A stretch of DNA of 32,110 nt from Oscillospiraceae bacterium (GTDB lineage: Bacteria; Bacillota; Clostridia; Oscillospirales; Oscillospiraceae). The notes under the pieces are model-generated. The model saw nothing but the letters and a program-made list of their open reading frames with translations, did not search any database and had not been told where the DNA came from. Of the stretch, positions 5,804 through 12,041 are shown piece by piece. The stretch is from the NCBI GenBank assembly GCA_017458085.1, contig JAFTGE010000075.1, positions 1-32,110 of the forward strand, given 5' to 3'. Each line of letters opens with the position of its first letter. Position 1 is the first letter of the stretch. The position numbers and the translations under genes are program-made.

Positions 5804-6475
5804 ATGGAAGAGGCTTCCAACGTGCTGTTTTCGATCGGGCCGCTGGAGGTGACCAGCACCGTCACCGCCACCTGGGGCATCATTCTGGTGCTGACGGTGG
5901 TGTCGTGGCTGGCCACCCGCAGACTCAAGGAGGTGCCGGGCACACTGCAGACCGGGGCTGAAATGGCCGTAAGCTCGCTGCAGAACTACTTTGCCGGCAT
6001 CCTCGGCAAGGAGCATGCGAAGAAGTATTTCCCGATTTTCGCAACCTTCTTCATCTTTATCATCGTTTCCAACTACAGCGGACTGCTGCCCGGCGCGGGC
6101 CATCTCAAGGGCTTTGCGGTGCCGACGGCCTGCCTGTCGGTGACGGCGGGGCTGGCCATCATCGGCTTTTTCACCACCCATACCATCGGCATCAGGGAAA
6201 AGGGCTTCGGCAAATATATGCTCAGCTTCCTCAAGCCCGTGGCGCTGCTGCTGCCGCTGACGCTCATTGAACAGGTGGTGCGCCCCTTCTCCCTGGCCCT
6301 GCGTCTGTACGGCAACATGTACGGCGAGGAAAACGTCACCGAGAACCTGTACAACATCTTCCCCATTCTCGTGCCCCTGGTGATGCAGGTGCTGAGCTTG
6401 CTGTTCTGCATGATCCAGGCCCTCGTGTTTACCATGCTGCTTTCGATCTACGTGTCGGAAGCGATCGAAGACTAA
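5804..6475 (+). CDS. atpB: F-type ATP synthase subunit a
   Basis: Subunit a forms the two ion half-channels of the membrane Fo sector. The 223-residue polytopic protein contains the family signature [13 protein letters not shown], which holds the essential arginine that faces the c-ring carboxylate. The hydrophobic segments are spread along the protein as expected. AGAGGTGAT lies just upstream of the ATG. It is the first gene of the operon; no atpI-like gene precedes it. Length is slightly short of the roughly 240-270 usual for bacterial subunit a. Confidence 0.96.
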
Positions 6476-6506: not shown

Positions 6507-6734
6507 ATGAATTCCGGACTTATCGCTATCGCCGCCGCTCTCTGCATGGCTCTGAGCACCATCGCCCCCGCCATTGGTCAGGGCCTCACCGCCTCCAAGG
6601 CCATGGACGCCATCGCCCGCCAGCCCGAGGCCGCCGGCGACATCCGCTCCACCCTGATCCTGTCGCTGGGTCTGATGGAGGCGCTGACCATCTACGGTCT
6701 GCTGATCGCCTTCATGCTGATCGCCAAGATCTAA
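6507..6734 (+). CDS. atpE: F-type ATP synthase subunit c
   Basis: Subunit c forms the rotating proteolipid ring. The 75-residue hairpin has two membrane helices joined by the loop ARQPEA and the ion-binding carboxylate Glu58. Aligned with the sodium-binding Ilyobacter tartaricus c subunit (offset 7), Pro21, Gln25, Glu58 and Tyr63 match Pro28, Gln32, Glu65 and Tyr70. However the Ser66 and Thr67 equivalents are Ala59 and Leu60. Ion specificity is therefore uncertain. The gene has an AGGAGG site and follows atpB by 31 bases. Confidence 0.96.
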
Positions 6735-6758: not shown

Positions 6759-7187
6759 ATGTTAAGCATCAACATTTCCGAGCTCATATGGACGTTCATC
6801 AACTTCTTCCTGCTGCTGTTTCTGCTCAAGCGGTTTCTGTACACGCCCGTCTCCCAATTCATGGAGCAGCGCCAGGCGAAGATCGACGCCGGCCTTGAGG
6901 CCGAGCGCGAGGCCCGCCGGGAGGCAGAGGAAAACCGCGAGAAGCTTTCCGAGGCCAGGGCCGAGGCGAGAGCCGAGGCCGCACAGCTCGTAGGCGCCGC
7001 CCACGGCGAGGATACGCGCCGGGGCGCCGAGGTCATCGCCGCCGCCAAGGGGGAGGCCAAAGCCGCCCTGAAGACGGGGCAGGCCGATCTCGATGCGCTT
7101 TGCGCAAAAGAGCGGGCCGCGCTGAACGCCGGCGCCGGCGACCTTTCGGCGCAGCTGGCCGCACGGCTTCTGGGCCGGGAGGAATGA
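6759..7187 (+). CDS. atpF: F-type ATP synthase subunit b
   Basis: Subunit b is the peripheral stalk that holds F1 against rotation. The 142-residue protein has one N-terminal membrane helix (about residues 8-28, rich in Phe and Leu) followed by a long charged coiled coil made of Glu, Ala, Arg and Lys. This is the canonical b subunit of the operon; a second b-type segment follows in the next gene. The start is ATG 6759 because GGAAGGAG is seven bases upstream; an in-frame TTG at 6753 would be too close to it. It is slightly shorter than typical b subunits (about 155-170). Confidence 0.9.
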   Translation: MLSINISELIWTFINFFLLLFLLKRFLYTPVSQFMEQRQAKIDAGLEAEREARREAEENREKLSEARAEARAEAAQLVGAAHGEDTRRGAEVIAAAKGEAKAALKTGQADLDALCAKERAALNAGAGDLSAQLAARLLGREE

Positions 7188-7219: not shown

Positions 7220-7234
7220 ATGACCGGACCATGA
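7220..7234 (+). other. Four-codon minicistron overlapping the b'-delta-alpha start
   Basis: An ATG directly after the strong GGAGGG site opens a frame of four codons (M-T-G-P). Its TGA overlaps the ATG at 7231 as ATGA. The b' start itself is about 11 bases from the ribosome binding site, so initiation at 7231 may depend on termination-reinitiation from this minicistron. Confidence 0.4.
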
Positions 7235-7506
7235 GCGGTTGGAATATCCTCTATGGATTGATTAACTTTGCGATCCTGGCCGGAGCGCTGGTTTTCATCG
7301 GGCGAAAGATCGTGGCCAACGCCGTCAAAAAGCATCAGGATCAGGTGGAAAACGACCTGAAGCAGTCCGCGGTGTCCCTTGAAAACGCAAAAAAGCTGCG
7401 TGAGAGCATCGGGCAGGAGAGCGTCAGAGGCGCCGAGGAGCGCGAGGAGATCCTCGCCGCGGCGCGGAAGACCGCCGAGGCCGGCTCCCGCAAGGCCGAC
7501 GAGTAG
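7231..7506 (+). CDS. Second b-type (b') stalk segment, ends at an in-frame amber codon
   Basis: The 91 residues before the stop comprise one N-terminal membrane helix (about 7-24, LINFAILAGALVFIG) and the start of a charged coiled coil, the layout of an ATP synthase b or b' subunit. Codon 92 is TAG. Beyond it the same frame continues without another stop through more coiled coil, a delta C-terminal domain and the complete alpha subunit to 9495. A 91-residue b' would be too short to span from membrane to the top of F1. I therefore read this as the first part of a b'-delta-alpha fusion, interrupted by a nonsense mutation, a sequence error or a read-through codon. Start ATG 7231 follows GGAGGG at about 11 bases. 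Confidence 0.7.
   Translation: MSGWNILYGLINFAILAGALVFIGRKIVANAVKKHQDQVENDLKQSAVSLENAKKLRESIGQESVRGAEEREEILAAARKTAEAGSRKADE
7504..7506 (+). other. In-frame TAG codon inside the b'-delta-alpha frame
   Basis: The triplets run GAC GAG TAG ATC CGG ACG, with coiled-coil coding on both sides. TAG is one base from CAG (Gln) or GAG (Glu), both natural at this position. TAG is a genuine stop of miaB in this window, so the genetic code is not globally reassigned. Confidence 0.9.
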
Positions 7507-7557
7507 ATCCGGACGCAGACGGCGCACATTGCCGCCGACGCGGACGCCGACCTTAAA

Positions 7558-9495
7558 TTGGAAGCACGGCGCGCGCACCATGCGCTGAGCGTCGAGGCCG
7601 CCGAACGCATAACCGCCGAGGCCGCCGCGCTGATCGCGCAGCCCGAAAACGCCGCCGCCCGCGACGCCATGCAGGAAAAGCTTGTCTCCCTGGTGGAGCA
7701 GAAGCTGACCGTTTCCCGCGGGGAGCTGGGCAGCTTCCGCGACAGAGGCAGCGTGAAAGTCCTCGTCAGCGCCGCCGAGCCGGTAGGCGCCGACCGCCTC
7801 GCCCGGCTGCGCGACGCGGTCACAAAAAGCTTTGCCGCCGCCGGAGAAGCCCCGGCCCCGGAGCAGCTTATAATGGAAACAAAAGTGGACGAAGGGCTGA
7901 TCGGCGGACTGCGCCTGCAGGTGGGCGACACCGTCTATGACGGCAGCGTCGCGGCCCTGCTGGGCCGCGCCCGCCGCGAGCTTGGCGAGAACGACGACCT
8001 GGATCACGCGCTGACCGAGGCCCTTTCCGCCCAGATCGCGACCCTTTCCGCGAACCCCGAGATCTACCAGATGGGCACCGTCATCAGCGTGTCCGACGGG
8101 ATCTGCCGCGTGTCGGGCATCTCCGACGCCATGGCGGGCGAGCTGCTGGAAATCCAGGGCGGCCTGCGCGGCATGGTCATGGACCTGGAAAAGGACAACG
8201 TGGGCGCCGTGCTGCTGGGCAGCTACGACACCCTGCAGGAGGGCAACTGGGTGCGCCGGACTGGGCGCATCACCGAGGTGCCCGTGGGCGAGGAGCTGCT
8301 CGGCCGCGTGGTCAACGCCCTGGGCGTCCCCGTGGACGGCCTGGGCGAGCTGCACACCGCCGAGACGCGGCCCATCGAAAGTCCCGCGCCCGGCGTCATC
8401 GACCGCAAGAGCGTCTCCCGGCCCATGCAGACCGGCATCAAGGCCATCGACGCACTGGTGCCCATCGGCCGCGGTCAGCGTGAGCTGATCATCGGCGACC
8501 GGCAGACCGGCAAGACCGCCATCGCCATCGACACCATCCTCAACCAAAAGGGCAAGGATATGATCTGCATCTACGTCGCGATCGGTCAGAAGGAATCGAC
8601 CGTGGCGGGTGTAGTCAACACCCTGCGCGAGCACGGCGCCATGGACTACAGCATTGTGGTCTCCGCCAGCGCCTCGGAGTCGGCGCCCATGCTCTATATC
8701 GCGCCCTACGCCGGCGCCGCCATGGGCGAGTACTTCATGTACAAGGGCCGCGACGTGCTCATTATCTATGACGACCTGTCCAAGCAGGCCGTCGCCTACC
8801 GCGAGATCTCGCTGCTGCTGCACCGTCCGCCCGGACGCGAAGCCTTCCCCGGCGACGTGTTCTACCTGCATTCGAGACTGCTCGAGCGCGCGGCGCGTCT
8901 CAGCGACGAAATGGGCGGCGGCAGCATGACCGCCCTGCCCATCATCGAGACCCAGGCCGGCGACATCGCCGCTTACATCCCCACCAACGTCATCTCCATC
9001 ACCGACGGCCAGATCTTCCTGGAAACCGACCTGTTTGCCTCCGGCGTGCGGCCGGCCATCAACGTCGGCCTGTCCGTGTCCCGCGTGGGCGGCTCGGCCC
9101 AGCTGGGCGCCATGAAGCAGGTGGCGGGACGTCTGCGCATGGATCTGGCCCAGTACCGCGAGCTTGCCGCCTTCGCGCAGTTCGGCTCCGATCTGGACAA
9201 AACCACCCAGGCCACCCTGCGCCGCGGCGACCGCATGACAGAGCTTTTAAAGCAGGGGCAGTACGCACCCATGGAGGCCTCCGATCAAGTGATCTCCATC
9301 TTCGCGGCCAACGCCGGGTACATGGACGATGTGGCGCTCAAGGACATCGCCCGCTTCGAGGCGGGGCTGATCCCCTTCGTCAACGAGCAGTATCCCGGCC
9401 TGCACGGGGAGATCCTCTCCGGCAAAAAGCTTGACGACGGGCAGCTTGCCAAGCTGCGCCGCGCCATCGAGTCCTTCAAGGAGAGCTTTGAATAA
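7558..9495 (+). CDS. atpA: ATP synthase alpha subunit with N-terminal delta-like domain
   Basis: Alpha subunits form the F1 hexamer with beta and bind nucleotide at non-catalytic sites. Numbering from the TTG at 7558: residues 1-50 are coiled coil continuing from the preceding b' segment; 66-140 match the delta C-terminal domain ([27 protein letters not shown]); alpha begins near 147, with Walker A GDRQTGKT at 313-320 and the VSRVGGSAQ arginine-finger region. Normal alpha is about 500 residues, and the alpha part here is complete. The delta N-terminal six-helix domain is absent, and no separate delta gene exists in the operon. TTG 7558 has no ribosome binding site; the frame is open back to the amber codon at 7504. 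The best internal start is ATG 7873 (Met106), preceded by GGAG at nine bases. The true start is unresolved. Confidence 0.85.
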
Positions 9496-9520: not shown

Positions 9521-11768
<2,248 letters not shown>

Positions 11769-11777
11769 GGAGCGGCC

Positions 11778-12041
11778 ATGGCAAAGGAATTTCGTCTGAG
11801 CGTTGTCACCGGAGACGGCACCGTCTTTGATGACAGCGTGGACTATCTCAACATCCCCACGCCCTTCGGCTCGGTGGGCGTGCTGGCCGGACATGCCAGC
11901 ATGCTCTGCGCCGTGGAGCCGGGCGTCCTGCGCTGCACCAGGAATGGCGAGACGCTGCGCATCCGCGTGGGCAAGGGCGTGGCCAACGTCGAGGGCCGCG
12001 AGACCACCGTCCTCGTGGCCGAGGGCGAGACGCTGGAATAA
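11778..12041 (+). CDS. atpC: F-type ATP synthase subunit epsilon, short form
   Basis: Epsilon is part of the central stalk and, in many bacteria, an inhibitor of ATP hydrolysis. This protein has only 87 residues: the N-terminal beta-sandwich is present (FRLSVVTGDGTVFDD, FGSVGVLAGHASML, VGKGVANVEG), but the C-terminal two-helix arm that inserts into F1 is missing; usual length is about 130-140. The stop is followed within ten bases by the operon terminator, so this is a natural end and not an obvious frameshift. GAGGAG precedes the ATG, nine bases after atpD. Confidence 0.93.
   Translation: MAKEFRLSVVTGDGTVFDDSVDYLNIPTPFGSVGVLAGHASMLCAVEPGVLRCTRNGETLRIRVGKGVANVEGRETTVLVAEGETLE

Follow-up and report, generated by a model that had tools for sequence, protein, structure and literature searches.

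The F-type ATP synthase operon of an Oscillospiraceae bacterium (assembly GCA_017458085.1) encodes subunit b′, the C-terminal domain of subunit δ, and subunit α in one reading frame, and sequence comparison with relatives establishes this b′-δ-α fusion as real. The operon is located on contig JAFTGE010000075.1, which was analyzed over its full length of 32,110 nucleotides (hereafter, the window) and is one contig of a source genome of 2.67 Mb (135 contigs, 93.5% complete). The architecture is referred to as type IV, or b′-δ(dN)-α, where dN denotes δ without its N-terminal domain. The enzyme is a variant of F-type ATP synthase and no new type of machine; by analogy with an engineered enzyme, we consider it rather likely to be a naturally locked multi-stalk form, in which b′-δ(dN)-α chains would support up to three peripheral stalks and three a subunits with a raised ion/ATP ratio.

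The operon is encoded on the forward strand in the order a, c, b, [b′-δ-α], γ, β, and ε. Upstream of the fusion gene are atpB for subunit a (5804..6475, 223 aa; PF00119, E 4e-45), atpE for subunit c (6507..6734, 75 aa; PF00137, E 8.9e-19, and c alignment), and atpF for a separate subunit b, the likely partner of b′ (6762..7187, 141 aa; PF00430, E 1.3e-17). Downstream of it are atpG for γ (9521..10369; PF00231, E 3.6e-83), atpD for β (10374..11768; PF00006, E 6e-74), and atpC for an ε of 87 aa comprising the N-terminal domain only (11778..12041; PF02823, E 4.3e-18). Pfam analysis of nine window stretches recovered the F-type set of a, c, b, α, γ, β, and ε, and no second domain was detected in the window ε at E 0.1. 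Stop-to-stop ε frames of 88–115 aa were observed in 15 of 24 type IV rows of the comparative set, those of type II and III rows being at least 137 aa; a short ε also occurs in 3 of 15 full-δ rows. Subunit c of the window carries Gln in helix 1 and the motif MEALTIY in helix 2, i.e., Glu followed by Ala-Leu-Thr. The helix-1 Gln is present in all 24 type IV rows and Glu-Ala-Leu-Thr in 21 of them, and the latter form is absent from the 36 other rows of the c alignment. The type IV pattern is presumably of the proton type.

The fusion gene (7231..9495) comprises 755 codons with a final TAA and one internal stop, an amber codon at codon 92 (7504..7506). Its b′ part, with an approximate end (7231..7695), consists of a single membrane helix and a coiled coil; the region before the amber matches PF00430 (b/b′) at residues 6–84 with 28.1 bits, the cut-off being 28, and the match extends over residues 6–135 in the relative L175. 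The region after the amber matches PF00213 (δ/OSCP) only at profile positions 99–172 (7741..7983), i.e., the C-terminal domain alone and not the full two-domain δ of F-type enzymes. It continues into α (8017..9495, with an approximate start), which consists of an N-terminal helix, a β barrel, a nucleotide-binding domain with GDRQTGKT, and a C-terminal domain (PF02874, PF00006, PF00306); α is complete, its nucleotide-binding core is intact, and it is colinear with the engineered chain 9jc1_I. In the relatives L125, L175, and L096, PF00430, the PF00213 C-terminal domain, and the α domains are found in a single chain, each above the cut-off, and the PF00213 range in the fusions, including that of the window, is limited to about 97–172. 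Translation and Pfam analysis therefore agree with the sequence-only reading, which had described one frame from ATG 7231 running through b′, a TAG, the δ C-terminal domain, and a complete α in an operon devoid of a separate δ gene or a δ N-terminal domain.

The same reading had named two observations that would speak against a fusion, i.e., separate b′, δ, and α genes in relatives and a δ gene elsewhere in the genome; the former was not seen in the clade, nor the latter above the cut-off in the source genome. Outside the fusion, no PF00213 match above the Pfam cut-off was detected in the 93.5% complete genome, a second match scoring 11.7 bits, below the cut-off. PF00306 matches the same genome once, in the fusion, and no other F-type α was found. 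Ten other genomes of the genus are at least 90% complete and carry the fusion (G012, G015, G018, G023, G026, G029, G030, G032, G033, and G034), and PF00006 at E 1e-10 detects in them only the fused α, β, and two V-type-sized members; an interruption of the fusion frame in G026 accounts for its five PF00006 rows. Several genomes of the genus lack the fusion and have only V-type-sized PF00006 members; four of at least 79% completeness (G001, G008, G022, and G027) have just two.

Conservation of the fusion was examined by using the 178 residues downstream of the amber to query 59 other genomes (60 with the source genome). This query matched 28 of the 59 (29 of 60 with the source genome), and open frames of 737–790 codons were found in 24 of the 28, so that the fusion is not a product of chance; among the four exceptions, contig ends truncate the frames of G005 and G016, and those of G002 and G026 are shorter and interrupted. 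A wider scan of named genomes, with the b′-δ part of 22 sequences as query, detected 268 relatives, of which the best 80 less one provided 79 loci; two of these (L123 and L135) share one genome. Among these best 79 of 268, a single closed frame of 735 or more codons is present in 69 loci, including L157 and L160, each without one of the two motifs asked for. Eight of the remainder are cut by contig ends, one of which (L163) also stops early, and two are interrupted in α; altogether, α is interrupted in L153, L163, and L178. A motif rule without a length limit counts 72 of the best 79 as fused. The gene order a-c-b-fusion-γ-β-ε is constant wherever the genes were matched in these 79 loci. By tblastn, b was matched in 76 of them and ε was missed in 18, many of which are on early-ending contigs; under a stricter rule, b lies upstream of the fusion in 74. 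The b′ membrane helix and δ are 203–222 residues apart in the 73 loci measured among the best 79. Most of the 79 are metagenome-assembled genomes (MAGs) labelled Oscillospiraceae, Ruminococcaceae, or Clostridiales, and the titles of many mention rumen or gut; one record, L175 (contig CCFG01000005 of 'bacterium MS4'), seems to come from an isolate. The genome shared by L123 and L135 (G006) is a MAG with two type IV operons 45% identical in b′-δ, reflecting either duplication or a mixed bin.

The amber codon is most likely an isolated sequencing or assembly error of the MAG or a strain-level nonsense mutation, and not part of the design. In an alignment of 28 related rows, the amber column contains a residue in 25, a gap in three, and a stop in none; the residues are 8 Glu, 5 Ala, 4 Arg, 2 Lys, 2 Leu, and one each of Gln, Gly, Ile, and Ser. 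The comparison proposed in the sequence-only reading, i.e., an uninterrupted codon at 7504 in homologues, thus gave an amino acid in all 25 rows with a residue (Glu in eight, Gln in one, others in 16). That reading had left sequencing error, strain-level nonsense mutation, and read-through as options, and the first two stand. That the TAG is read as an amino acid, leaving the frame intact in this organism too, is extremely improbable: although a second in-frame TAG occurs in the A subunit of the V/A-type ATPase of the same genome, release factor 1 (RF1) is present, TAG ends 33 of 247 frames of at least 250 codons in a 410-kb sample of the genome, and no CUA anticodon was found among the tRNA loci examined (49 Rfam matches above the cut-off and three below). 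Suppression or recoding was consequently rejected, the genome showing neither loss of RF1, nor rarity of TAG as a stop, nor a CUA tRNA. Furthermore, of the 36 other genomes of the genus, 34 have a PF00006 match, and none of these matches contains a stop. The second TAG (L117, reverse strand at the end of contig 94) is about 70 bases from the contig end, and the 28-base overlap of this end with the end of contig 56 contains one mismatch; further residues near this TAG also look unusual. Damage-type errors throughout the window were also rejected, on the basis of leave-one-out departures at near-invariant columns: these are ordinary (1 of 204 columns in the fusion, 1 of 233 in β, and 0 of 19 in γ), and the amber is thus not one among many errors. 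Whether the gene is truly broken in this strain, through a nonsense mutation or decay in a fermenting organism whose V-type enzyme also reads as broken, is a separate matter compatible with the fusion, and we regard such a break as a tentative possibility. It agrees with the one TAG in the frame and with the four genomes noted above with only two V-type-sized members, in which the F-type enzyme seems dispensable. However, an assembly error explains the TAG equally well, and because 755 codons contain no other stop and one departure in 204 near-invariant columns, any break would be very recent.

The three-arm consequence of the fusion, absent from the sequence-only reading, is the main consequence inferred here. 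F1 contains three α subunits. Since no other α or δ was found and no conserved internal start was detected, three b′-δ arms per F1 are expected. Each fusion would form a stator piece running from the membrane helix through the coiled coil and the δ C-terminal domain to α, and every F1 would carry three such b′-δ arms, which could dock alike once the δ N-domain is gone. Each arm would most likely pair with one separate b and hold one a subunit against the c-ring. With as many as three stalks and three a subunits, more ions would then be moved per turn (c × a), which would permit ATP synthesis at a low ion-motive force. Three stalks, three a subunits, and a raised ion/ATP ratio are probable on the basis of stoichiometry and the engineered precedent.

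The precedent was provided by Ueno et al. (2025; PMC12229609), who argued that the δ N-domain, on the threefold axis, restricts the enzyme to a single stalk. In their engineered Bacillus PS3 FoF1, the δ N-domain was deleted and the C-domain was fused to α, giving up to three stalks, each with an a subunit. About two stalks on average were estimated by SDS-PAGE, cryo-EM particles carried 0, 1, 2, and 3 stalks in 15, 51, 26, and 8% of cases, and the H+/ATP ratio was 5.8; the rule proposed is that ions per turn equal c × a (PMC12229609). The authors state that stalks dissociated, cryo-EM grids showing fewer of them than biochemistry did, and call for a version in which the stalks stay stably bound (PMC12229609). 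A chain of the engineered enzyme, 9jc1_I, ranks third among the 60 PDB matches listed for the post-amber part; the alignment begins inside the δ C-domain, crosses the joint, and stops close to the end of α. The natural and engineered enzymes (PDB 9JC1) share the absence of the δ N-domain, the fusion of the C-domain to the α N-terminus with joint spacings of 46 and 49, and, according to the published description, the missing ε C-domain. Unlike the natural form, the engineered one is man-made and is described with a separate b2 dimer; here, b′ is covalently built into the arm, so that one b-like chain is fused and one b gene stands apart in place of a b2 homodimer. The authors also noted a natural δ-α fusion in Acidaminococcus fermentans and comparable features in two UniProt entries, G4Q3K6 and A0A1I2C5T3 (PMC12229609). 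That fusion likewise joins δ without its N-domain to α, whereas type IV adds b′; Acidaminococcus was compared by its published description, the relevant passages of which mention no b fusion.

A b-like N-terminal part joined to δ is also found in the mycobacterial b-δ (PDB 7JG5 chain d, subunit b-δ), in which profile matches cover residues 2–158 and 368–441 of 445. In contrast to type IV, which lacks the N-domain and has α fused, the mycobacterial chain has about 210 residues between the matches and a separate α; we take this stretch to be the δ N-domain plus an insertion. Three peripheral stalks also occur in eukaryotic V-ATPase, which differs from type IV in its unrelated stalk subunits, its single a, and its role as a hydrolytic pump. 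The b′-δ-α chain had been proposed in the sequence-only reading as a new stalk design; this holds for the covalent b′, and not for the δ-α half, which was engineered and noted in 2025 (PMC12229609). New here are the covalent attachment of b′, the clade, and how far it is spread. Among the papers listed in a search of open-access literature, none dealt with a b′-δ-α fusion, and PMC12229609 was the only one found bearing on it.

Several points weigh against the multi-stalk reading: α could be released by post-translational cleavage of the fusion; the engineered enzyme has about two stalks by SDS-PAGE, with three in 8% of particles (PMC12229609); loss of the δ N-domain also occurs without fusion to α; this frame contains a stop; and there are genomes in the genus without the fusion. 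Moreover, because a and b are encoded by one gene each, extra copies of these subunits must come from higher expression. If the fusion were cut, or if α were also started internally, most α subunits would be free and one b′-δ-α per F1 would support a single stalk. Such an arrangement would retain the normal 3:1 stoichiometry, and some start codon is available within a 48-codon junction window in 61 of 71 loci (including that of the window and some near-copies). However, a strong ribosome-binding site with a start is found at the junction in 27 of the 71 against 278 of 638 control windows (44%), no start codon is present there in ten, some of them near-copies, and 68 of the 71 have a strong ribosome-binding site at their best start within the first 70 codons. 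No conserved internal start for a free α was thus found in the junction window of the 71 loci, and an internal start giving free α was set aside as unsupported, ribosome-binding sites not being enriched. Furthermore, the spacing is tightly kept. The joint, measured from the DxVYD motif of δ to the first barrel strand of α in 76 of the best 79 of 268 loci, spans 46 residues in the window and in 49 of the 76, and 44–50 in all 76, and the membrane-to-δ distance is similarly constrained (203–222 in 73 of the best 79). The δ N-domain expected for a single stalk is missing as well, and we consider cleavage or internal initiation unlikely.

Alternatively, all three fused arms might be present with only one engaging b and a, the other two being idle membrane tethers. 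The single a and b genes of the operon would suit this arrangement, as would the ease with which the engineered enzyme reportedly lost stalks (PMC12229609). Yet without the δ N-domain there is no asymmetry by which one arm would be selected, and idle arms should decay, whereas the fusion is kept closed in 69 of the best 79 of 268 loci; we judge this arrangement quite improbable. For the strongest form of the multi-stalk reading, our confidence is evenly divided: an obligate triple-stalk enzyme with three b/b′ stalks built into the α subunits, each with its own a, would, in gut and rumen Oscillospirales-type bacteria, raise the ion/ATP ratio roughly threefold over that of a single-stalk enzyme with an identical c-ring, the δ N-domain having been lost repeatedly and stalk number acting as an evolvable gear.

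The evolutionary setting was examined with a tree of the α core and β from 60 chosen rows, 24 of which were selected from a larger number of type IV operons (quick search, SH-aLRT support only, midpoint root). Representing at least four genome families (f1, f18, f19, and f20), all 24 type IV rows fall into one clade (SH-aLRT 100) apart from the δ(dN)-α rows. Rows lacking the δ N-domain occupy three places in the tree with full-δ rows between them, and under the midpoint root this separation suggests that the δ N-domain may have been lost more than once. In the order, 145 of the 295 genomes searched contain a PF00213 match. Among the matches listed, full separate δ proteins are about 173–199 aa, and the δ C-domain alone (73–78 aa) occurs in at least seven genomes, near-full δ-α frames (670–706 aa) in at least three, and tandem δ domains in at least two. 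The same matches include at least 25 frames of δ(dN)-α size (579–668 aa; by size and profile range) and frames of b′-δ(dN)-α size (737–784 aa) in at least nine genomes besides the source genome, eight of the nine having no other OSCP match among those listed. Purpose-made profile models were applied to 45 atp-bearing stretches (20 and 25), which cover 11 of the 25 δ(dN)-α and five of the nine type IV frames; all were as expected except L211, in which the δ domain was not seen by the model.

Other stator arrangements were found in the same survey. Seven loci (L202, L204–L208, and L246) have a separate δ C-domain gene (73–78 aa) between b and α with no fusion; since the δ N-domain is lost here without α fusion, fusion is not needed for the loss, and these operons are possibly multi-stalk too. 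L245 carries a b-δ(dN) fusion of 239 aa; this locus and L217, L218, and L214–L216 have rearranged stators, comprising tandem δ C-domains fused to α, a full δ with an extra C-domain, b-δ(dN), and near-full δ-α. In five genomes (G127, G265, G287, G309, and G329), a full-δ match and a δ-N-less match of fused size coexist among the matches listed, and both operons of G127 and of G329 were read with the profile models; these five suit a comparison of two stators in one cell. In three genomes (L212, L242, and L245), γ continues into β in a single uninterrupted frame (649, 795, and 776 codons, respectively), which is puzzling because a rotor-stator fusion would jam rotation; a possible β start signal lies inside each frame, and β of L212 changes frame later.

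Outside the order, 340 of 398 genomes had a match, and 35 were picked by hand, most for a weak or multiple match, so that the result gives no frequency; they contain at least 11 frames of 611–659 aa with C-domain-only matches, assigned by size, in eight other families of the phylum. No type IV frame was found outside the order among the matches listed for a class sample of 391 genomes. One candidate (G735, locus L278) was rejected, its b being separated by one stop from a δ(dN)-α that lies in frame with it; this locus might represent a step towards a b-δ-α fusion.

The neighboring designs in the order, i.e., δ C-domain alone, b-δ(dN), δ(dN)-α, near-full δ-α, and tandem δ, make the evolutionary path testable by comparison. 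The type IV clade, in which the b′ half of the stalk is covalent, may be the version with stably bound stalks wanted by the authors of the engineered enzyme (PMC12229609). If the multi-stalk reading is confirmed, the ion/ATP ratio would be changeable by stalk number as well as by c-ring size, and the finding would bear on how fermenting anaerobes obtain ATP from a weak gradient.
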